15,896 bases of DNA, taken from the NCBI GenBank assembly GCA_031263335.1, contig JAISGB010000146.1, positions 1 to 15,896 on the forward strand, read 5' to 3'. The notes beneath the pieces are model-generated. The model did no database searches. It was not told the origin of the DNA and saw nothing but the letters and a program-made list of their open reading frames with translations. The DNA comes from Eubacteriales Family XIII. Incertae Sedis bacterium (GTDB taxonomy: Bacteria; Bacillota; Clostridia; Peptostreptococcales; Anaerovoracaceae). Made by a program: the position numbers and the translations under genes. Of this stretch, positions 2,275-15,896 are shown one piece after another. Position 1 is the first letter of the stretch, and each line of letters opens with the position of its first letter.

Positions 2275-3348
2275 ATGAGAATTTCAGACAGGACATATGG
2301 ACGAAGAGCGATCGCGCTTGCGGCGGTTGTATTGATATTGGCGGGATGCGGTTTTGTGTTTGCCGAGGACGGGACGGACGGTTCCGGATCGGCGACGACG
2401 GGATCGGCGCTCGATGACGCGCGGACGGGTATGGTCTCGCGCGCGCCCGACGAGCCTTCCATCACCTTTGACGCGATGGGCGGCGTCTGCGACTCGACAT
2501 CCAAGACCGTCGTGTTTGGGCGCAAATACGATGAGATGCCGGTGCCGACCATGGACGGCTTCGTGTTTGGCGGCTGGCATACGAAGCGGGATCGCGGGGC
2601 GCGCGTCTTGGAGAACAGCCGCGTAAAAACCCGATCGGATACCGTGTATTACGCGCGTTGGATCCCCAAGGGCGATTACAGGAAGGTGCGCGGCCTGCCC
2701 ATCCTGATGTATCATTGGTTCTATGACAAGAATGCCGGCGGAACGGGCGCCAACGGCAATTGGTTGGATATCGACATGTTTCGGGCGCATATGGCGTATC
2801 TGCGCGACAATCAATATAAATTCCCGACATGGCGCGAGGTGGAGGCTTTTGTGACCGGCAAGATGGCGTTGCCGCCCAAGAGCGTGGTGATCACGGACGA
2901 TGACGGCGACGACAGTTTCTTCGCGTTGGCGCTCCCCGTGATCAAGCAATACAACGTCGATGTCACATCCTTCCTGATCACCTCCGCAAAGGGACGGTCA
3001 ACGGTGGAAGGATTTGCCGACGAACGCGTCCGTTACCGTTCCCATTCCCATAACATGCATCGGGGAGGGCAGGGCGGCAAGGGTCTCTTTCTGTCCCTCG
3101 GCCGCGAGGAAGCCCTGAAGGATCTGCGGACATCCGTGGACGAGCTTGGGGGCAAGGCGGAGGTGTTCTGCTATCCCTTCGGGCACCACAATGAGAAGAC
3201 GGCGAAGATCTTGGATGAGGCCGGGTTCCGGTTGGCCGTCACCACCGAATTCAAGCGCGCGTATCCCGGCACAGACCGATACGCCCTGCCGAGGGTGCGC
3301 GTCAGCGCGGGGGAAAGCTTGGAATCCTTCATCTCCTCGGTCAAATAA
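2275..3348 (+). CDS. Lipoprotein polysaccharide deacetylase with an InlB-type repeat
   Basis: This is a predicted exported NodB-fold deacetylase that would remove acetyl groups from a surface polysaccharide or peptidoglycan. The 357-residue protein starts with a basic region and hydrophobic segment ending in the lipobox LAGC (Cys25), so it is probably a lipoprotein. Residues about 63-131 form one InlB B-repeat (Listeria-Bacteroides type), with SITFDAMGG, GFVFGGWHT and VYYARW. The catalytic domain runs from about 140 to 355. It shows ILMYHWFYD, a TDDDGDD version of the usual TFDDG motif (207-213), the metal-binding HSHNMH (257-262) and CYPFG (299-303). It has its own promoter and ribosome binding site. 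Its neighbours on both sides are also envelope proteins. The deacetylase fold is secure; the substrate is not. Confidence 0.88.
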   Translation: MRISDRTYGRRAIALAAVVLILAGCGFVFAEDGTDGSGSATTGSALDDARTGMVSRAPDEPSITFDAMGGVCDSTSKTVVFGRKYDEMPVPTMDGFVFGGWHTKRDRGARVLENSRVKTRSDTVYYARWIPKGDYRKVRGLPILMYHWFYDKNAGGTGANGNWLDIDMFRAHMAYLRDNQYKFPTWREVEAFVTGKMALPPKSVVITDDDGDDSFFALALPVIKQYNVDVTSFLITSAKGRSTVEGFADERVRYRSHSHNMHRGGQGGKGLFLSLGREEALKDLRTSVDELGGKAEVFCYPFGHHNEKTAKILDEAGFRLAVTTEFKRAYPGTDRYALPRVRVSAGESLESFISSVK

Positions 3349-7091: not shown

Positions 7092-8354
7092 TTATATCAA
7101 CCAAGCCGGAACGTACCAATTCTTCTTGTCGATCGGGATGACGTCGGAGGGCATACAGATGACCGCCCCTGTGCCTATCTCCGTCTTTAAATGCGCCGTA
7201 CCCGAAAGCACATCGTCTTCATTCGGATCTTCCTCGATCGGCTTGAGGGCGGAGAAATTCCGGATCGCGTCTTTCGGCGCGGAACCCTTTTTTATTTCCA
7301 TGGGATGGACCTTCCCGTCTAAGGCGATGATGAGATCGATCTCTTTTTTGTTGCTGTCGCGATAAAAATACAGAGGCGGCCTTTTGCCGTTGTGCAGATA
7401 GCTCTTGTAGATTTCCGAAACGACCCATGTTTCGAAAAATGGACCGCTCATCGCGCCGTGTTCCAATACTTCCGCGCTGCTCCAACGGGTGATATGGGCG
7501 CAAAGCCCGGTGTCGAGAAAATACATGCGCGGCGCCCGAACCACTCGTTTCAGCGCGTTGTTTGCATAGGCCGGGATGAGGCAGACGAGTCCGCTCGATA
7601 CCAATACGGACAGCCATTGTTTCGCCGTAGGCGCGGAAATGCCCGCTTCATTCGCCAAGGTTTCATAGTTTACGTTCGTGGCCGTCCTCGCCGCCACAAT
7701 ACCGATAAAATTCAAGAATGACAATTCGTTTGCCACTTGGGACAAGTTCTTGATGTCGCGGCTGATATAGGTTTCCAGATAGGATTCGAAGTATTCGTCG
7801 CGCTTCGTCTGTTCCGTTTCGTACATGCGCGGCATCGAGCCTTTGAAGATGCGCTCAAACACTTGTCCGATGTTCGGCGGCGAAGCCAATCCGGCGCGCC
7901 GTATCCATTCCTGCGGCTCCGCCGTGAACTCCGCAAAGCGGGTCCCCGTGATTTCACTGTTTGACAGTCCAAGCATACGGACCACGCCGGCGCGCCCGGC
8001 CAACGATTCCGTAACCTGTGCCATCAGGTGAAAGGTCTGCGAGCCTGTCAGCCAAAAATCTCCGCATTGCTTGTGTTCATCGACGTATACCTTGATATGG
8101 TCGAACAATTCCGGCGCGTATTGCACTTCGTCGATCAGGACGGGCGGCGCGTATCGTTGCAGGAACATTGCGGGTTCCTGTTTTGCGAACGCCCGAACGG
8201 TCGGATTGTCGAGCGATACGATCTTCCGGTCCGCGCTCGCCATTTTTTTCAGCAAGGTGGACTTACCGACTTGACGCGGCCCGGTCAACATCAGCACGGG
8301 GAATGCCGCGTCTATGTTGCGCAATGCGCCCTCAACGATCCTTTCATAAAACAT
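7092..8354 (-). CDS. AAA-type ATPase with a C-terminal DUF4143 nuclease-like domain
   Basis: This belongs to the widespread AAA/DUF4143 ATPases, whose biological role is poorly defined and which often move between genomes. The start at 8354 is chosen because GGAGGG lies eight bases upstream; the product has 420 residues. The N-terminal ATPase shows Walker A GPRQVGKS (25-32), Walker B VLIDEVQ (72-78) and a sensor strand WLTGSQ (101-106). A winged-helix-like middle region contains YETLANEAGISAPTAKQWL. The C-terminal domain has YFLDTGLCAHI, ETWVVSEIYK and FYRDSNKKEIDLII followed by MEIKKG, which resembles a PD-(D/E)XK nuclease core. It sits alone on the minus strand between ispE and the SRP RNA, where related Firmicutes usually have tadA beside the RNA. 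That suggests an acquired gene. Confidence 0.93.
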   Translation of the reverse strand: MFYERIVEGALRNIDAAFPVLMLTGPRQVGKSTLLKKMASADRKIVSLDNPTVRAFAKQEPAMFLQRYAPPVLIDEVQYAPELFDHIKVYVDEHKQCGDFWLTGSQTFHLMAQVTESLAGRAGVVRMLGLSNSEITGTRFAEFTAEPQEWIRRAGLASPPNIGQVFERIFKGSMPRMYETEQTKRDEYFESYLETYISRDIKNLSQVANELSFLNFIGIVAARTATNVNYETLANEAGISAPTAKQWLSVLVSSGLVCLIPAYANNALKRVVRAPRMYFLDTGLCAHITRWSSAEVLEHGAMSGPFFETWVVSEIYKSYLHNGKRPPLYFYRDSNKKEIDLIIALDGKVHPMEIKKGSAPKDAIRNFSALKPIEEDPNEDDVLSGTAHLKTEIGTGAVICMPSDVIPIDKKNWYVPAWLI

Positions 8355-8477
8355 TGCAAACCCTCCTTCGGCGGGAATCACGGCCGAACAATTTACGGAG
8401 ATCCAAACTGTAATTTCAGATTAACATAAACCCGGGGTTTTATCAAGCGGTAACCCCCGTGTACTTTCAAATTGTGC

Positions 8478-8506: not shown

Positions 8507-8537
8507 GCAAGTAATGTAACGAGCGCGATCCGTGACC

Positions 8538-8668
8538 CGAGGTTTTGCAGGCGGGGTTTGGTTCCGCGCAATGGGAACCCGTGAACCTCGTCAGGTCCGG
8601 AAGGAAGCAGCGATAAGCGGATTATCCCATGTGCCGCGGATCGGCCTGACCCTGCCTGCAAAGCCTCG
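8538..8668 (+). ncRNA. ffs: Signal recognition particle RNA, small (4.5S-like) type
   Basis: This is the RNA scaffold of the signal recognition particle. It binds Ffh and guides nascent membrane and secreted proteins to FtsY. The diagnostic apical sequence GTCAGGTCCGGAAGGAAGCA, with its GGAA tetraloop and conserved asymmetric loop, lies at 8590-8609. The ends pair as a continuous 15-base helix, 8538-8552 with 8654-8668, including one G-U pair. Further out from the tip, ATGGGA pairs with TCCCAT. The molecule of about 131 nucleotides contains the domain IV hairpin only and lacks the Alu domain of the larger Bacillus-type RNA. The exact ends are inferred from the pairing. It lies directly upstream of dnaX, as in many Firmicutes. 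Confidence 0.96.
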
Positions 8669-8711
8669 TGTTGTTGTATCGCGGTTATTCAGTCGGGTCG
8701 AGAGGGGATCA

Positions 8712-9815
8712 TTGGACGGGAAATACATCGCCATTTACAGAAGATTTCGGCCGGAGACCTTCGACAAGGTTCTCGGGCAGGAACATGTCGTCAGGATCCT
8801 GCGCAGTCAGATCGCCTCGAACAACACAGGCCACGCCTATCTGTTCAGCGGCACGAGGGGTACGGGCAAGACCACCATGGCGCGGTTGCTCGCAAAGGGG
8901 CTGAATTGCCTGAGCGACGGGGAACGGCCCTGCGGCGTCTGTGAAAACTGCGTCTCCATCAAAAATGGAGCCTTCATCGACGTGATAGAGATAGACGCCG
9001 CGTCCAACAACGGCGTGGACAATGTCCGTGAACTCAGGGAGAGTGTCGTCTATCCGCCGGGCGTCGGCAGGAAAAAGGTGTTCATCATCGACGAGGTGCA
9101 TATGTTCTCGAAGGGCGCGTTCAACGCCCTGTTAAAGACCTTGGAGGAACCCCCGGAGCATGTGGTCTTTGTGCTCGCCACCACGGAGCCGAACAAATTG
9201 CCCGCCACCATCCGGTCCAGATGTCTGCGATTTGATTTCAAGCGCGTTTCCGTCGCCGAGATCGTGAAAGGCATGCGAGAGATCTGCGCCGAGATGGACG
9301 TCCGCGCCGATGACGACGCCCTGGTCCTCTTGGCCGGCAACGCGGACGGATCGGTGCGGGACGGACTCAGCCTTTTGGAACAATGCGTCTCCGCGGGTAC
9401 GGGTTCGATCATGCGTGAGTCGGTTCTTGAGATACTGGGCAGCCCCGGCGATGATTTGTTGTCCTCCCTGACGGACGATGTCGCGGCCGGGCGGATCGCG
9501 GAAGCGTTGATACTCCTCGATGAGATATTGGCCGCGGGCAAGGACGAGCGGCGCGTGATCGAGGAATGGATACAGTATTTCCACAGCGCGCTCCTGATCA
9601 AGTTCGTCAAGAACCCGGAGCGCATCGTGAACAGATCCGTCGAGAGCATCGATCGGATACGCAAACAGAGCAAGCGCCTTGAGCCGGCGTTCATCAACGA
9701 TTGTATCTACAGGCTCTCGAAATTGTTGAACGATGTCCGATGGTCGGCGCATACGAGAATATTGTTGGAGATGACGATCATCGAGATGGGCGAAAACGCG
9801 ACCGTTGAACGATAG
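8712..9815 (+). CDS. dnaX: DNA polymerase III gamma/tau subunit, short form
   Basis: DnaX is the clamp-loader ATPase that loads the beta sliding clamp and organises the replicative polymerase. The start is the TTG at 8712, with AGAGGGG at 8701-8707; sequence further upstream belongs to the SRP RNA. The motifs are FRPETFDKVLGQEHV at the N terminus, Walker A GTRGTGKTT (47-55), zinc-binding Cys66, Cys74, Cys77 and Cys80, the DEVH box (127-130), TLEEPP and the SRC sensor (169-171). The product has only 367 residues, whereas many Firmicutes homologues exceed 500. It ends soon after the collar domain (domain III), so the tau-specific region that contacts polymerase and helicase is absent. No slippery frameshift heptamer was noticed. 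The last residues, ATVER, are encoded by the left arm of an intergenic repeat. Confidence 0.95.
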   Translation: MDGKYIAIYRRFRPETFDKVLGQEHVVRILRSQIASNNTGHAYLFSGTRGTGKTTMARLLAKGLNCLSDGERPCGVCENCVSIKNGAFIDVIEIDAASNNGVDNVRELRESVVYPPGVGRKKVFIIDEVHMFSKGAFNALLKTLEEPPEHVVFVLATTEPNKLPATIRSRCLRFDFKRVSVAEIVKGMREICAEMDVRADDDALVLLAGNADGSVRDGLSLLEQCVSAGTGSIMRESVLEILGSPGDDLLSSLTDDVAAGRIAEALILLDEILAAGKDERRVIEEWIQYFHSALLIKFVKNPERIVNRSVESIDRIRKQSKRLEPAFINDCIYRLSKLLNDVRWSAHTRILLEMTIIEMGENATVER

Positions 9816-10871: not shown

Positions 10872-10948
10872 CGCGACCGTTGCGTAGTCTTGATTTATGT
10901 TTTTATCACGAGCCTTGATTTAAGTTTTGAGTTGATAATCACTCAAGG
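10872..10948 (+). repeat. Intergenic repeat element, copy 3, with a hairpin beside the cdd ribosome binding site
   Basis: The recR–cdd gap holds CGCGACCGTTG (10872-10882), then TAGTCTTGATTTATG and a second, better-matching block TTGATTTAAGTTTTGAG (10915-10931). The copy therefore looks partly duplicated relative to copies 1 and 2. At its end TTGAGT (10927-10932) and ACTCAA (10941-10946) form a perfect six-base stem with an eight-base loop, one base from the GGGAGGAGG of cdd. An alternative pairing, CCTTGA (10913-10918) with TCAAGG (10943-10948), would cover the edge of that site. Two competing stems suggest a possible effect on cdd translation, but this is inference. Confidence 0.65.
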
Positions 10949-10961
10949 GAGGAGGTCGGCG

Positions 10962-11360
10962 ATGGACAATAAGGCGCTGTATCTTAGGGCAAAATCCGCT
11001 TGCGCGCGAGCCTATGCTCCTTATTCCGGTTTTCGCGTCGGGGCTGCGGCGCTTACGGCGTCCGGCGAGGTCTTTGAGGGCGTGAACATCGAAAACGCGT
11101 CCTACGGCGCCACGATCTGCGCGGAGCGCGTCGCCGTTGCTTCCGCCGTCCTGAACGGGCACAGGGACGATATCGAGGCCGTCGCCATCGCCGCCGTCTC
11201 GGCGTCCGGCGCCGTCGTCGCGCTCCCCTGCGGCATCTGCCGCCAATTCCTCTTCGAGTTCGGCGCGGACATTCGCGTCATCGTCGGCAAGGACGAAGAT
11301 CACTTGCGGGAGTACCGATTGTCGGAACTCCTGCCCGAAGGTTTCCGTCTTGGTTATTGA
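10962..11360 (+). CDS. cdd: Cytidine deaminase
   Basis: Cdd hydrolyses cytidine and deoxycytidine to the uridine forms in pyrimidine salvage. The 132-residue product has the size of the tetrameric bacterial enzyme. It shows YSGFRVGAA (21-29), the nucleoside-binding NIEN (43-46), the catalytic CAERVA with zinc ligand Cys53 and Glu55, and PCGICRQ with Cys90 and Cys93. The start at 10962 is set by the strong GGGAGGAGG at 10948-10956; in-frame sequence further upstream lies inside the repeat. The radical SAM genes begin 11 bases after its stop, so they may share its transcript. Confidence 0.96.
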   Translation: MDNKALYLRAKSACARAYAPYSGFRVGAAALTASGEVFEGVNIENASYGATICAERVAVASAVLNGHRDDIEAVAIAAVSASGAVVALPCGICRQFLFEFGADIRVIVGKDEDHLREYRLSELLPEGFRLGY

Positions 11361-11371
11361 GAGCGTGACAA

Positions 11372-12352
11372 ATGAAGCGGTTATACTTTGCGGTCACAAG
11401 ACGTTGCAATCTTCGTTGCGCTCACTGTTTTAACGACTCCGGAAAAACGCTCCGGGATGAGCCGGATGCCGCCCGGATCTGTTCCGTTATTGAAAAGGCG
11501 TCCGCAGAGGGTTTTTCGGAAATACAGATTACGGGCGGTGAGGCCTTGGTTCGGGAGGATATATGGGACATCCTCGATTTTGCCGGCGCCAAGGGGCTGA
11601 CCGTGCTGTTGCAGACAAACGGCGTTATCGATGATCGCGTTATGGATAAACTGCGCCGCTCGGATCCGGAACGCACAGGCTTTATCATATCGGTGGACGG
11701 GTTTGAAACCAACGACGCTTTACGCGGCGCGGGCGTTACCGATCGCGCCCTCCGTTCCGTTCGGGTTTTGTCCGGGCGCTTCCGCGTTCGCATCAACACG
11801 TTGCTCACCGCACAGATAAGCGACTCGGAAATCAGGCGAATGATCGATTTTGCGGGGCAAACCGGAGCGGCGCTCGCGTTCAATCCCATTATCCCCATCG
11901 GCAGAAGCGGTATATCCGACATGGGGGATCCGAGGGAATTGTTTAAACGCATGGTATGGATTGAGAAAGCGGGCGTCAACATACGGAAAGGCTTTACATA
12001 TGACGCTCAGGCCAAGTCGTTTTGCGAGAATGAGAATTGCCCCGTCCGGACACGCGACGGCGTTTTTGTCTCCGCAGACGGGGATTGCTATCCCTGCGGT
12101 TTTTTTGACGGGCTTGAAGAAATGAGATTGGGTAATATCATGGAGGACGGTGACGGATTCGCGTCCGTCATGCGGAACTACCCTGCGGGATATGATGAAA
12201 TAAACCGTGAATGCGCGGTCTGCTTTTATTACAAAACCGGGAAATGCTTTGCCGGTTGCCCGGCTCGTATACACGCCTTGCACGACCGGTTCGGGGGACG
12301 TGAGTATTACTGTATGAAACAATACGGAGAGGAGTGGATGCGCGATGTGTAG
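11372..12352 (+). CDS. Radical SAM/SPASM protein 1
   Basis: This is a predicted radical S-adenosylmethionine enzyme, which would use an iron-sulfur cluster to generate a 5'-deoxyadenosyl radical. The 326-residue protein carries the cluster motif CNLRCAHC (Cys12, Cys16, Cys19), GGEAL (55-59) for SAM binding and ISVDGFE (106-112). A C-terminal SPASM-type region contains Cys218, Cys223, Cys239, Cys242, Cys281, Cys284, Cys292, Cys296 and Cys314, enough for auxiliary clusters. SPASM enzymes commonly modify ribosomal peptides or small cofactors. The exact subfamily and the substrate are not recognisable from sequence alone. The ribosome binding site is weak (GAGAG), which suggests coupling to cdd. 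Its 3' end overlaps the next gene by eight bases. Confidence 0.9.
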   Translation: MKRLYFAVTRRCNLRCAHCFNDSGKTLRDEPDAARICSVIEKASAEGFSEIQITGGEALVREDIWDILDFAGAKGLTVLLQTNGVIDDRVMDKLRRSDPERTGFIISVDGFETNDALRGAGVTDRALRSVRVLSGRFRVRINTLLTAQISDSEIRRMIDFAGQTGAALAFNPIIPIGRSGISDMGDPRELFKRMVWIEKAGVNIRKGFTYDAQAKSFCENENCPVRTRDGVFVSADGDCYPCGFFDGLEEMRLGNIMEDGDGFASVMRNYPAGYDEINRECAVCFYYKTGKCFAGCPARIHALHDRFGGREYYCMKQYGEEWMRDV

Positions 12353-13547
12353 GCCCGCGTACCGCGCGAGGACGGAGTGGAACGGGATCGAACTGTTTGA
12401 GCGCAATGAAGGCCGTTCGTTTCTCATTGAACCGGATGGGGCGTTGGACGCATATGACTGCGAAAAGCCCATAGACACCCCATATCACAAGAACGCGAAT
12501 TATTGTTCCGCGCCGAAGCGCGTGTATTGGGAACTGACGCGGAAATGCAATCTTGCCTGCGCAAACTGTTATAACCGGTTTGCCGCTCCGCATTTTGCGG
12601 GAGAGATGGATTTGGAGCAATGTATGCGTCTGGGAAAGACCCTGTATGAAAACGGCGTTTGGATTGTCCAACTGACGGGCGGGGAACCCACCGCCTCGCC
12701 CCATGTGTGGGAACTGGCGGCCTATTTGAAGGCGTTGGGATTCTATCTCGCCATGGGTACGAACGGCGTCTGGAAACGAGAGGTTATGGATAACGCCTTG
12801 GCCTCCGGCATCGATTGGCTCATCGTCTCTGTGGACGACGAGCATTTGGCGCAAAGCAAGCCTTTGCTCAAAGACGGTGTGCTTGCGGCGATCGAGACCG
12901 CCGGCGAATACGCCCGCGCCGGGCGTAGGGTGCGCGTCAACACATTGATCCAAGAGGGCAACCATACATATGAGCAGTTAAAACCGTTGGCTGAAAACTG
13001 TTGCCGGATCGGCGTCGAATCATTGAATTGCATCCCTTTGCGCCCGTTCACATCGGAACCGTCGGCTTTGAAAAAGCAACTGACCAAGGATGGGTTTCGA
13101 GCGTTCATCGCCGCGTTGGAGATTCTTCGGGCGGAATATCCGGACTTGAATTTCGTCACAACCCTTGACTTGAAGCCGACGGACTCCCATGACCGCGTAT
13201 ACAAAAAAGAAAAATCCTGCGCCGCCGGACGGGAAGGGTGCGTCATCTCCCCGTACGGCGACGTTTACGGCTGTTCTTACAGCCTTGCGTCCTCGCTCGA
13301 CGGGAACGATCCCGAACGCGCGCGCTTTGTGGCGGGCAATCTCGATGAATGCGGGTTTATGGACATATGGAACGACTCGAAGCGGTGGGCCGTGTACCGT
13401 GACCTGCAAATGTACAAGCACGAAAGATGCCGCCGTTGCGATTATTACAATGCAAACCGATGTATCGGGAATTGTCCGATTATGGTAAAGAATTCCCCCG
13501 GCGCGTTTGACCCGTATTGTTATGTGGATGTTGGTTACCAATTTTGA
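12345..13547 (+). CDS. Radical SAM/SPASM protein 2, with an N-terminal extension
   Basis: This 400-residue predicted radical SAM enzyme starts inside the end of the previous gene (eight-base overlap), a sign of translational coupling. Residues 1-57 precede the barrel and include ELFERNEGRSFLIEPDGAL (16-34). That short strand pattern is reminiscent of peptide-recognition (PqqD/RRE-like) or ligand-binding extensions, but it is too short to assign. The radical SAM core follows with CNLACANC (Cys68, Cys72, Cys75), GGEPT (112-116) and IVSVDDE (160-166). The C-terminal SPASM region contains Cys292, Cys299, Cys310, Cys362, Cys365, Cys373, Cys377 and Cys392, which fits two auxiliary clusters. The substrate is unknown. 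The next gene begins six bases after its stop. Confidence 0.9.
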   Translation: MCRPAYRARTEWNGIELFERNEGRSFLIEPDGALDAYDCEKPIDTPYHKNANYCSAPKRVYWELTRKCNLACANCYNRFAAPHFAGEMDLEQCMRLGKTLYENGVWIVQLTGGEPTASPHVWELAAYLKALGFYLAMGTNGVWKREVMDNALASGIDWLIVSVDDEHLAQSKPLLKDGVLAAIETAGEYARAGRRVRVNTLIQEGNHTYEQLKPLAENCCRIGVESLNCIPLRPFTSEPSALKKQLTKDGFRAFIAALEILRAEYPDLNFVTTLDLKPTDSHDRVYKKEKSCAAGREGCVISPYGDVYGCSYSLASSLDGNDPERARFVAGNLDECGFMDIWNDSKRWAVYRDLQMYKHERCRRCDYYNANRCIGNCPIMVKNSPGAFDPYCYVDVGYQF

Positions 13548-13553
13548 CAAAAA

Positions 13554-14540
13554 ATGGGCGATCGCATAATGAAAGAGGAATATACCGTGGATTTTGAAAA
13601 GGCGAAACTGTTTCCCCGTATTGTGAATGTAAATGTGATGGCGGGACGCTGTCCGTGCCGTTGCGTACATTGCCCGGTGGGAACGGTCGCGCCGGAGGAT
13701 CGTTTGAAGCGGTTCGGTTCTAAGGAGATGAGCTTGGGACTGTTTGCCCGCATCGCCGAGGAAATCAGTTTGCATGAGGGAAGCATGATGCGCCTCCACT
13801 CGGTCGGGGAACCGCTCTTATGGAACAATCTGCCGGAAGCGTTGTCGATCCTGCGTGAATACGGCACGGATTCATGGCTGTTTACATGCGCTGTGACCCG
13901 CGCCGGAACGTTGCTTTCGGCGCTGTGTGAAAGCGTATCCATCATCGAGGTCTCCGTTAACGCCTCGGACGCGGACGGATACCGCGCAACCAAGGGCATT
14001 GACGCGTTTGACGTTGTTTCGGAAAATATCGCGTTCCTGTCCGGATATATCCGCAGGAACGGTTTGAAAACACGTCTCCTGCTGAGCCGCGTACAAACGG
14101 ACGATGAAAAGGCGGACGAAAGATTCATTGCATACTGGCGTGATAAGGATGTCGCTGCCGACGTGTTTGTCCGCTCCTATCACAATTACAATAATATTTT
14201 GGATATCCGCGGCGAAGCGGGGGTTAAAGAGCCGTGCCTCGTCCACTGGGCGCGGGCGTCCGTTGACTGCGACGGCGCAATGGTATGTTGCTTCAACGAA
14301 TTGTTTAAGGCATATACGGAAGATGTCGTTCTCGGGCGGATTGACGGCGACACAAATATCGCGCGGATTTGGAACGGAGAGAAGCTCGCCGCAATCCGCT
14401 CCTGCGATAGGTCGGGGGATTTTTCCCCGCTTGCGTTCGACATTCCGTGCAAAAACTGCCGGACCTGCCAACCGATAGACACGAAGAAGGAAACCTCGGA
14501 AAAACAATTGGAAACGATCTCACGTTGCCGGGAGGCTTAA
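13554..14540 (+). CDS. Radical SAM protein 3, with a SPASM-like C terminus
   Basis: This 328-residue predicted radical SAM enzyme is more divergent than the two before it. The cluster motif CPCRCVHC (Cys33, Cys37, Cys40) carries an extra cysteine at 35. The usual GGEP is replaced by SVGEP (83-87), and no clear ISVDG strand follows (IEVSVNASD at 131-139 takes its place). The C-terminal region has Cys228, Cys239, Cys245, Cys246, Cys299, Cys302 and Cys305, which suggests one SPASM-like or twitch auxiliary cluster. The start at 13554 has no clear ribosome binding site; ATG at 13569 (MKEEYTVDF) is an alternative and lacks one too. It is probably translated by coupling to the gene upstream. The substrate is unknown. 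Confidence 0.87.
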   Translation: MGDRIMKEEYTVDFEKAKLFPRIVNVNVMAGRCPCRCVHCPVGTVAPEDRLKRFGSKEMSLGLFARIAEEISLHEGSMMRLHSVGEPLLWNNLPEALSILREYGTDSWLFTCAVTRAGTLLSALCESVSIIEVSVNASDADGYRATKGIDAFDVVSENIAFLSGYIRRNGLKTRLLLSRVQTDDEKADERFIAYWRDKDVAADVFVRSYHNYNNILDIRGEAGVKEPCLVHWARASVDCDGAMVCCFNELFKAYTEDVVLGRIDGDTNIARIWNGEKLAAIRSCDRSGDFSPLAFDIPCKNCRTCQPIDTKKETSEKQLETISRCREA

Positions 14541-14544
14541 ACCG

Positions 14545-15843
14545 ATGAACACGGATCGCAAGCGCAACGCGGTTTTGATAAACCCGCCCTATGGCGGCGT
14601 CGATGATGACGCGCTCGAGGAGAATCTGGGGCTTTCTTATATCGCGGGCTATTTGCGGGAACGCGGAATCGACACGGCGATCTGTGAAATGACCGGCAAG
14701 GAACCGCTCGATACAAAATTGGCCGCGTTGCATATTGCCGATGTGTACGGAATCAGTATGTACTCCACCGCCGTTGAAAGCACGAAGTCGATCATACGGC
14801 ATATCAGGCGGATTGCCCCGGCGGCGCCGATCTATTTGGGCGGTCCCCACCCGTCGGCTTTGCCGGAAGAATCACTGGCGGAATTGGGCGCGGACGGGGT
14901 TATCGTCGGTGAAGGCGAAGCAGCTTTTTATGCGGTTGTCTTGGCGGCCAACGAGGGGAATCCGATCGGCGGCGTGATACGGGGTGAACAGGAAACCGAC
15001 TTGGACAGAATCCCGTTCCCCGCCAGAGACATGGTGGAACGCGGGCGCTTCACCAGACGGTTGAATGGGGAACCTTGTATCTCAATGCTGACAAGCCGCG
15101 GTTGTCCGTACAGCTGTCTGCATTGCAACAGCATTGTCATGGGCGGCGCCGGCGTCGGGTTTCGATTCCGTTCCGTTGAAAACGTCATTGAAGAAATCCG
15201 CCTGATAAAGGAGTTGGGATACCGCAATATCCGTTTCAATGACGACAATTTTCTCGCCAATCCTCGGCTTCATGAATTGTTGGCCGCCATAGCGAAGGAG
15301 GATATTCTCTTTCGCGTTTTCGGGCGGGTGGAGGACTATAAACCGGACACTTGCGCATTGCTTAAAAATGCGGGCTGTCAAATGCTGTCGGCCGGCATAG
15401 AATCCTGTAACCCCGACAATCTGCGTTTTCTGCGAAAACACGGCATGTTAAAGTACATGAATCATCTGACGGCGGCGAAGGAGCGCGGCCTTGCCGTACG
15501 CGCGTCTTTTATGGTGGGACTGCCTTACGATACGGACGCGAGCATCGAGCGGTACTTCACCGAAGCGTCCGGGCTTGCCATTGACGAATACGCTGTATAC
15601 GGCCTCATCCCATATCCCGGAACCGCCCTGTATGCCAACCCCGAACAATACAACTATTACATAACCTCGTTCGATTTTTCACGGTATATGCAAATAGGCA
15701 AGGGCGGCGAATCGTGTTTTGTCTTGGGTTACGACGACGGTGTGAACGCGTTTACGCCGGAGGATGTGCGGCGATGGCACAGGCGGGCAAATGAATTGCT
15801 TGGAAATCGCCTGAAACATATGAGGGACAGCGCGGTGCAATAG
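14545..15843 (+). CDS. B12-binding radical SAM protein
   Basis: This 432-residue protein combines a cobalamin-binding domain with a radical SAM domain. Residues about 8-140 form the B12-binding Rossmann fold (VLINPPYGG, LGLSYIAGYL, YGISMYSTAV, YLGGPHPSALPEE, GVIVGEGE). The DxHxxG histidine motif is absent, as is usual in this class. The radical SAM core begins near 178 with MLTSRGCPYSCLHC (Cys187, Cys191, Cys194). It continues with RFNDDNF, a GIES strand and FMVGLPYDT, a BchE-like arrangement. Such enzymes methylate unactivated carbons or carry out ring and rearrangement chemistry; which applies here cannot be told. It starts four bases after the previous stop and ends the visible operon. Confidence 0.93.
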   Translation: MNTDRKRNAVLINPPYGGVDDDALEENLGLSYIAGYLRERGIDTAICEMTGKEPLDTKLAALHIADVYGISMYSTAVESTKSIIRHIRRIAPAAPIYLGGPHPSALPEESLAELGADGVIVGEGEAAFYAVVLAANEGNPIGGVIRGEQETDLDRIPFPARDMVERGRFTRRLNGEPCISMLTSRGCPYSCLHCNSIVMGGAGVGFRFRSVENVIEEIRLIKELGYRNIRFNDDNFLANPRLHELLAAIAKEDILFRVFGRVEDYKPDTCALLKNAGCQMLSAGIESCNPDNLRFLRKHGMLKYMNHLTAAKERGLAVRASFMVGLPYDTDASIERYFTEASGLAIDEYAVYGLIPYPGTALYANPEQYNYYITSFDFSRYMQIGKGGESCFVLGYDDGVNAFTPEDVRRWHRRANELLGNRLKHMRDSAVQ

Positions 15844-15850
15844 CAATTTT

Positions 15851-15856
15851 CGGAGG
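15851..15856 (+). other. Ribosome-binding-like site at the window edge
   Basis: CGGAGG follows the B12 radical SAM gene by seven bases and would suit a fifth gene in the operon. No ATG, GTG or TTG lies at a normal distance after it, so a downstream gene cannot be supported from the 53 bases left. Confidence 0.3.
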
Positions 15857-15896
15857 CAATAACAGGTTCTTAGAGCTGTGCTGTCAAGGGTATTTC

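Follow-up and report, generated by a model that had tools for sequence, protein, structure and literature searches.

Four radical SAM genes, here called C1 to C4, lie side by side at positions 11,372 to 15,843 of the window (the whole 15,896-nucleotide stretch of DNA that was analyzed), and the set that they form is a real conserved system. We favor, with modest confidence, the view that C1 to C4 are a horizontally acquired cassette whose products tailor a carbohydrate (an oligosaccharide, a sugar phosphate, or an NDP-sugar) toward an unusual sugar or glycan product. Sequence comparisons favor a carbohydrate or nucleotide-activated sugar as the probable substrate over a modified peptide because of the genes that adjoin or are fused to cassette relatives, the co-occurrence of some relatives with a CdpB-type GH94 enzyme, and the relationships of two of the proteins to AprD4 and BtrN.

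The window is a single contig (C54) of a genome that is 58.8% complete and divided among 279 contigs; judging by its relatives, the source sample may have been an insect gut or a comparable community. All four genes are read from the forward strand. On the basis of the ORF list and Pfam, C1 (11,372 to 12,352) encodes a radical SAM/SPASM-type protein of 326 amino acids. C2 (12,345 to 13,547) encodes a radical SAM protein of 400 amino acids whose SPASM cysteine set is complete and whose N-terminal extension is shortened, and C3 (13,554 to 14,540) one with BtrN-like Twitch cysteines. The product of C4 (14,545 to 15,843) is a B12-binding-domain radical SAM protein of 432 amino acids with an AprD4-like fold. 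The first-pass annotation of this DNA had described four radical SAM genes back to back, and indeed all four exceed the Pfam Radical_SAM (PF04055) cut-off of 29.5 bits, with scores of 60.9, 62.2, 33.5, and 78.6 for C1 through C4. The CX3CX2C motif is present in the radical SAM domains of C1, C2, and C3. Pfam likewise agrees with the earlier description of three SPASM-like cysteine sets and one B12 domain: C2 (37.6 bits) and C3 (31.2) exceed the SPASM cut-off of 21.5, C1 (21.2) falls slightly short of it, and C4 matches the B12-binding model PF02310 at 75.8 bits (cut-off 32.1).

As listed ORFs, C1 and C2 overlap by 8 bases and are followed by gaps of 6 bases (C2 to C3) and 4 bases (C3 to C4), as had been annotated. 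However, the start of C3 is most likely the GTG at 13,587 rather than the ORF start at 13,554, because a Shine-Dalgarno-like AGAGG (forward strand, 13,574 to 13,578, read by eye) lies 8 bases ahead of it and close homologs begin there; the aligned homologs P0122, P0126, and P0127 start with MDF or MDY. The gap between C2 and C3 would therefore be about 39 bases, and the first of the two annotated gaps would not hold. Upstream, the cytidine deaminase gene cdd (forward strand, 10,890 to 11,360) ends 11 bases before C1. This host gene bounds the cassette on the left, and the gene downstream from cdd differs in a genome of the same genus (G001) and in other relatives. At the other side, C4 ends 53 bases short of the end of the window.

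Relatives of C3 were sought by scanning genomes with two exact peptide patterns, and the 16 loci named here are therefore a lower bound. A C2-type gene accompanies the C3 relative in 15 of these 16 loci and a B12-radical SAM gene in 14, where C2-type and C1-type genes were told apart by best BLAST match and the ORFs are mechanically defined longest ORFs whose starts are uncertain. The loci span Bacillota, Bacteroidota, Chloroflexota, Patescibacteria, archaea, and other groups. That unrelated radical SAM genes with no common pathway became adjacent by chance is very improbable, and is already contradicted by these co-occurrence data. The composition of the cassette does vary, in that locus L050 has no C2-type gene and three loci carry a different B12 family, and the deeper branches (L059) disagree between gene trees. 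Against chance adjacency also stand the fusion of a B12-radical SAM gene with a C3-type gene in L058 and the topology of the close relatives, ((window, Defluviitaleaceae), Proteiniphilum), which is identical in all four gene trees. These nearest relatives possess the same set of genes. The C1/C2 family tree is weak at depth.

The genes thus recur together elsewhere, as the proposal of a multi-radical-SAM system required. Its further suggestion that the system is undescribed agrees with the finding that, among the matches listed, C1 to C4 reach no NCBIfam family cut-off. No description of the cassette was found in the literature covered, which excludes most subscription journals; the single paper found to contain both “radical SAM” and “cellodextrin phosphorylase” (PMC7996765) deals with Aneurinibacillus. 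A search of IMG/VR for C3 relatives gave 80 pattern matches and no confirmed one, and none was found in phages or in the plasmids searched, so viral or plasmid carriage was set aside. A role in defense was also discarded, as PADLOC matches occur only at the superfamily level. In the window's own genome (58.8% complete), a fifth radical SAM gene, C5, is represented by a weak match only (E = 3.6e-4).

C1 represents a discrete protein family, with 37 homologs of 36% to 62% identity among the matches listed before identity falls to 28%. Among named proteins, C1 and C2 are closest to the SPASM enzymes PqqE, SkfB, MftC, and AhbD, with which they have in common a radical SAM domain and a two-cluster SPASM layout. 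Their scores nevertheless fall far under the equivalog cut-offs of these families, as with C1 and the mycofactocin MftC model (100.3 bits; NCBIfam cut-off 265), and the cut-offs of AhbD/NirJ-type models are likewise not reached. C1 and C2 most resemble peptide and cofactor enzymes, which counts against the sugar reading. One such alternative is a cofactor or tetrapyrrole pathway in which C1 and C2 would be a pair like AhbC/AhbD or NirJ acting with a BchE-type B12 enzyme. We regard this as improbable. The best NCBIfam matches of C1 and C2 do include AhbD, NirJ, NirJ2, and PqqE, but at scores of 87.5 bits against a cut-off of 500 (AhbD), 77.8 against 515 (NirJ), and 65.3 against 381 (PqqE). Furthermore, C3 and C4 do not fit such a pathway, and the subset of neighbors scanned in 16 loci included no tetrapyrrole or pterin gene.

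SPASM and B12 radical SAM enzymes are a combination typical of RiPP clusters, and the first-pass annotation had linked it to modified peptides, cofactors, and other natural products while leaving the product class open. The three SPASM proteins and C4 could accordingly modify a ribosomal peptide encoded elsewhere, an alternative that we judge unlikely. In its favor, the profiles of C1 and C2 match SkfB, PqqE, CteB, and SuiB in the PDB, and an N-terminal domain of roughly 100 residues, present in longer relatives of C2, has a PqqD/RRE-like layout when judged by eye. However, this domain has no Pfam match in 10 of 10 cases and no PDB match, and its hhalign probabilities against 13 PqqD proteins (0.3% to 0.4%) fall inside the span of values given by 20 column-shuffled controls; these three comparisons thus lend no support to the RRE/PqqD assignment that the visual layout suggests. 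The C2 of the window retains only part of the domain. Fifteen of 17 cassettes contain no ORF of 20 to 110 amino acids led by a ribosome binding site, and the 38 small ORFs in and around the 17 cassettes show no match between loci, in a scan that demanded a ribosome binding site motif, excluded ORFs overlapping larger ones by more than 30%, and was run without a positive control. The search for short reading frames that had been recommended thus gave no conserved precursor peptide, which argues against a peptide product, whereas the exporters that it was also meant to find do lie beside some relatives. The neighbors of relatives are nucleotidyltransferases, NUDIX proteins, and GH94 enzymes rather than peptidases, with a Peptidase S51 gene (L051) and a caspase-domain gene (L052) as exceptions. 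A sactipeptide-like cluster of C. cellulolyticum, considered as a possible counterpart, spans loci Ccel_0327 to Ccel_0333, a different place (PMC3132745).

C3 and C4, by comparison, point to sugars. C3 is the most conserved member of the set, with the motifs C-P-C-x-C-x-x-C, RIHSVGEP, HNYNN, CFNELF, and TSEKQ. Alignments A1 and A2 each comprise 30 of the listed homologs plus the window protein; in the C3 alignment, C228, C246, C299, and C302 are invariant, and the spacing of the Twitch ligands (C-x17-C ... CxxC) matches that of BtrN. This enzyme, the 2-deoxy-scyllo-inosamine dehydrogenase of the butirosin pathway (PDB 4M7T), is the only PDB sequence match of C3, at 23% identity. C3 differs from it in the additional conserved residues Cys35 and Cys305 and in its C-terminal TSEKQ, and no 2-deoxystreptamine pathway gene was seen among the scanned neighbors of the cassette. 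We infer that C3 may catalyze a two-electron carbinol oxidation as BtrN does. The top Foldseek match of the predicted C3 model (5.9e-12) is DesII, a TDP-sugar deaminase of desosamine biosynthesis (PDB 8HZV) that is 15% to 17% identical to C3 and was missed by the sequence profile search. DesII is a radical SAM enzyme that acts on an NDP-sugar (PMC11434129).

For C4, the best match by sequence, profile, Foldseek, and VIA-align is AprD4, the paromamine 1,2-diol dehydratase of the apramycin pathway (PDB 6FD2). Identity is 25%, and the AprD4 family model NF033070 scores 75.4 bits against a cut-off of 500. C4 differs from AprD4 in its strong B12-binding domain match, and its predicted model has full-length matches to B12-radical SAM structures. 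The B12-radical SAM enzymes closest to C4 among known systems also include HpnJ, MgmA, and the PhpK-type P-methyltransferases (TIGR04479; 112.3 bits, cut-off 600). If C4 binds cobalamin, methyl transfer would be a putative option.

The genetic context of relatives adds to these clues. RfaE-II-like and sugar-1-phosphate-type nucleotidyltransferases and NUDIX domains are encoded next to relatives or fused with them, and PIG-L, glycosyltransferase, or exporter genes are also near some of them. It had been remarked that no glycosyltransferase or transporter is visible; this holds for the window, on whose contig no sugar gene adjoins C1 to C4, a point against the sugar reading, but not for all relatives. 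A search of the window's own genome for an RfaE-II-type gene gave two PF01467 matches on one contig, which are putative candidates; at 58.8% completeness, the absence of such a gene or of C5 would be tentative. Some of the neighbors of relatives could also suit a nucleoside or nucleotide pathway resembling those of viperin or blasticidin, in which the radical enzymes would target a nucleotide's base or ribose, and to this we assign the same low likelihood as to the peptide alternative. Thymidylate-kinase-like neighbors (L063, and L054 by clustering) occur in addition to the nucleotidyltransferase and NUDIX genes, viperin gives partial matches to C1, C2, C3, and C5, and BlsE is among the PDB matches of C1 and C2. 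The viperin models, however, align with only some portions of the proteins, and the SPASM regions lie outside the matches. No viperin or BlsE cut-off in NCBIfam is reached (viperin: C1 42.5 and C2 50.2 bits, cut-off 180, with C3 and C4 absent among the matches listed), and GH94, PIG-L, and Anp1-type glycosyltransferase neighbors fit sugars better.

Within one family of Clostridia, a GH94 phosphorylase bearing the CdpB signature precedes the cassette; of 11 genomes, the same 3 have both. CdpB (Ccel_2354) is a GH94 cellodextrin phosphorylase of Ruminiclostridium cellulolyticum, and one of the genomes concerned, G191, is presumably that of strain H10. All 11 active-site residues tabulated for CdpB in PMC6720390 are present in the GH94 enzymes next to the cassette in G191, L061, and L062, the residue at the phosphate site being Met. 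Expression and knockout of cdpB in R. cellulolyticum are already published, and the main text of the same paper, whose Figure 1 shows the genes around cdpB, does not contain the term “radical SAM” (PMC6720390). This branch of the cassette is more distant from that of the window (C2 35%, C3 42% to 43%, and C4 36% to 37% identical), and no GH94 was seen among the ORFs of the window.

For the favored carbohydrate reading, a scheme can be drawn from the relatives. The AprD4-like C4 would generate a radical at a carbon of its sugar substrate, leading to removal of a hydroxyl or, if cobalamin is bound, to addition of a methyl group. The BtrN-like C3 would abstract hydrogen from a carbinol carbon and use its Twitch cluster as acceptor of the second electron, forming a keto sugar, and the SPASM enzymes C2 and C1 may perform further oxidations, epimerizations, or bond formations. 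In relatives, RfaE-II-like or sugar-1-phosphate-type nucleotidyltransferases, NUDIX hydrolases, glycosyltransferases, or the CdpB-type GH94 could provide the sugar, activate it, or link it, and the product would be moved by ABC or MATE transporters. Partner genes for the window would lie past the end of the contig or elsewhere in the genome.

A broader and more speculative proposal, which we offer only tentatively, is that sets of three to six, or even more, radical SAM enzymes in both bacteria and archaea, DPANN and Patescibacteria among them, constitute an undescribed assembly line for a deoxygenated, oxidized, or methylated glycan or NDP-sugar, and that in cellulolytic Clostridia a duplicated cellodextrin phosphorylase, CdpB, was drawn into it to build or trim an exported metabolite derived from beta-1,4-glucan. 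Such recruitment would account for the poor performance of CdpB in catabolism and its lack of a growth phenotype.

Characterized clusters with multiple radical SAM enzymes mostly make peptides or cofactors. To our knowledge, the sugar-acting enzymes BtrN, DesII, and AprD4 are single enzymes of actinobacterial or bacillar antibiotic pathways. If confirmed, a conserved multienzyme cassette for sugars in anaerobes, archaea, and lineages with reduced genomes would point to a class of modified sugars not yet recognized. The Ruminiclostridium-like branch makes this reading testable, and gives CdpB, an enzyme with no clear catabolic role, a candidate pathway.

The four radical SAM genes C1 to C4 (positions 11372 to 15843, forward strand) follow a housekeeping stretch of dnaX, ybaB, recR, and the cytidine deaminase gene cdd on contig C54, part of a fragmented, 58.8% complete genome whose 279 contigs total 1.57 Mb, and the contig ends 53 bases past the end of C4. 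Pfam matches bear out the first-pass annotation of four radical SAM genes, three with SPASM-type cysteine sets and one with a B12-binding domain: SPASM-type domains are found in C1 to C3, with C1 just under the cut-off, and the B12-binding domain is in C4. C3 probably starts at GTG 13587. In none of the models shown do C1 to C4 reach a curated NCBIfam cut-off.

Several other features of this genome were recorded. In the stretch past the C4 stop codon (15850 to 15896) there is a GGAGG, but the contig ends with no start codon at the usual spacing behind it. Because the longest dnaX ORF (8532 to 9815) shares its 5' part with an Rfam small SRP RNA (8555 to 8654, forward strand, 79.5 bits), the true DnaX start is further downstream than 8532. 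Between ispE and this RNA is an ATPase ORF, by eye of the AAA/DUF4143 type (7092 to 8381, reverse strand), and at 2275 to 3348 (forward strand) Pfam finds a Listeria-Bacteroides repeat joined to a polysaccharide deacetylase domain. On contig C271 (positions 3 to 497), a PqqD match beside a radical SAM fragment probably represents a separate RiPP-type pair.

The set of C1 to C4 is a real cassette that crosses phyla and domains, and it is apparently undescribed. Scanning 84,980 genomes once with the C3 alignment yielded 16 loci, a lower bound given its two exact peptide patterns, from Bacillota, Bacteroidota, Pseudomonadota, Planctomycetota, Chloroflexota, Patescibacteria, Nanoarchaeota, Woesearchaeota, Methanosarcinales, and unclassified genomes. 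The first-pass annotation would have been refuted by a lack of co-occurrence in other genomes, but the genes do recur together: C3 is accompanied by a C2-type gene in 15 of the 16 loci (all but L050) and by a B12-radical SAM gene in 14, belonging to C4's family F02 in 11 and to the distinct family F06 in three. The two loci without such a gene, L051 and L053, are both cut by a contig end near the cassette. C1-type genes are present in eight loci, and seven carry C5, a fifth radical SAM gene that is absent between C2 and C3 in the window. L048, L049, L052, L055, L059, and L063 combine C1, C2, and C3 types with an F02 enzyme. Homologue searches agree with the locus scan on a conserved system. 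With longest-contig size as a proxy for a shared contig, 19 of the 37 closest C1 relatives match a C2 relative and 13 sizes are common to 92 C2 and 119 C3 entries, versus 0 and 1 shared sizes in a control of 82 distant entries. Flanking genes include a caspase-domain protein directly upstream of the Achromatium cassette (L052:6687-7298) and, directly after another, a gene for DNA gyrase B that contains an intein splicing domain (L054:12583-14985).

In its present host, the cassette appears to be foreign. Third-position GC is 0.62 to 0.66 in C1 to C4 versus 0.68 to 0.81 in 11 other genes measured, the lowest of which is the ATPase ORF (0.68). Among 60 genomes searched (its own and 59 relatives), a close C2 occurs only in its own (E = 1.6e-289); the best match elsewhere has 30% identity (E = 1.3e-18). 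C3 has matches at E <= 1e-20 in four of 391 genomes of the class, its own included. In G001, a genome of the same genus, cdd is followed by a gene that by eye resembles a sigma-54-type regulator, and in most other relatives cdd precedes a different ORF of ~300 aa. The cassette also appears to have moved as a unit. In each of the separate trees of C1, C2, C3, and C4, the window pairs with L048 (Defluviitaleaceae), and L049 (Proteiniphilum, Bacteroidota) joins next; support is 97 to 100 by ultrafast bootstrap and 92 to 100 by SH-aLRT. L059 belongs to this clade in the C1 and C2 trees, whereas in the C3 tree it joins L058 and L060 to L062 (96/94). Deeper placements differ between trees, indicating a mosaic cassette at greater depth.

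Enzyme chemistry, substrate, and product are inferred, and the most likely reading, at moderate confidence, is that C1 to C4 tailor a carbohydrate or nucleotide-activated sugar. The neighborhood comparison proposed in the first-pass annotation recovered the co-occurring set, with sugar-type neighbors or fusions in a minority of the 16 loci for each type. RfaE-II-type nucleotidyltransferases occur in L051, L054, L059, and L063, and L056 encodes one as a fusion with a radical SAM/SPASM protein; these and the protein-database entry P0162, a fusion with C3, form one recognizable subfamily. Against the heptose-1-phosphate adenylyltransferase model, whose cut-off is 181.5 bits, the L059 protein reaches 108 bits. 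NUDIX domains are present in L054 and, fused to a glycosyltransferase-like domain, in L050; in L062 and L061 the domain lies between C2 and C4, joined to the C2 end in the former and to the C4 start in the latter. In L058, the B12-radical SAM protein is fused to C3. Other neighbors are sugar-1-phosphate-type nucleotidyltransferases (L054, L063), a thymidylate-kinase-like protein (L063), a sucrose-phosphatase-like HAD protein (L051), a PIG-L deacetylase and a GalE-like epimerase (L050), PHP-domain proteins (L049, L063), and an Anp1-type glycosyltransferase (L051) that clusters with an L049 protein itself lacking a Pfam match. These neighbors point to sugar activation and transfer over peptides.

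RiPP-type maturation of a peptide, which we judge improbable, would fit the N-terminal domain of longer C2 relatives, whose appearance by eye recalls PqqD/RRE; yet this domain gave nothing above shuffled controls in Pfam, the PDB, or profile comparison with 13 PqqD proteins. Likewise, the search for short reading frames urged in the first-pass annotation, a scan run without a positive control, found no RBS-led ORF of 20 to 110 aa inside 15 of 17 cassettes (counting that of the window), and its 38 candidate small ORFs showed no resemblance from one locus to another.

The carbohydrate reading gains a more specific context in loci with the order GH94, C3, C2, C4 (L061, L062, and two further genomes), where C4 is followed by a MATE exporter in L061 and by an ABC ATPase with two ABC-2 permeases in L062 and the two further genomes. 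In the Clostridia genome G191, the adjacent GH94 matches CdpB (Ccel_2354), a cellodextrin phosphorylase of Ruminiclostridium cellulolyticum, at all 11 active-site residues published for it, including Met at the phosphate site; residues were compared at the published CdpB numbering shifted by two, and CdpC numbering fails at one of the 11 (PMC6720390). The same paper describes CdpB as weakly active and not induced on cellulose, with growth on cellulose possible in its absence (PMC6720390). Three of 11 genomes in the family of G191 carry the C3 cassette, and these hold this GH94 at 92% to 100% identity, versus best matches of 51% to 55% in the other eight. Although this represents few independent events in one genus, the pattern links a beta-1,4-glucan enzyme with this branch of the cassette.
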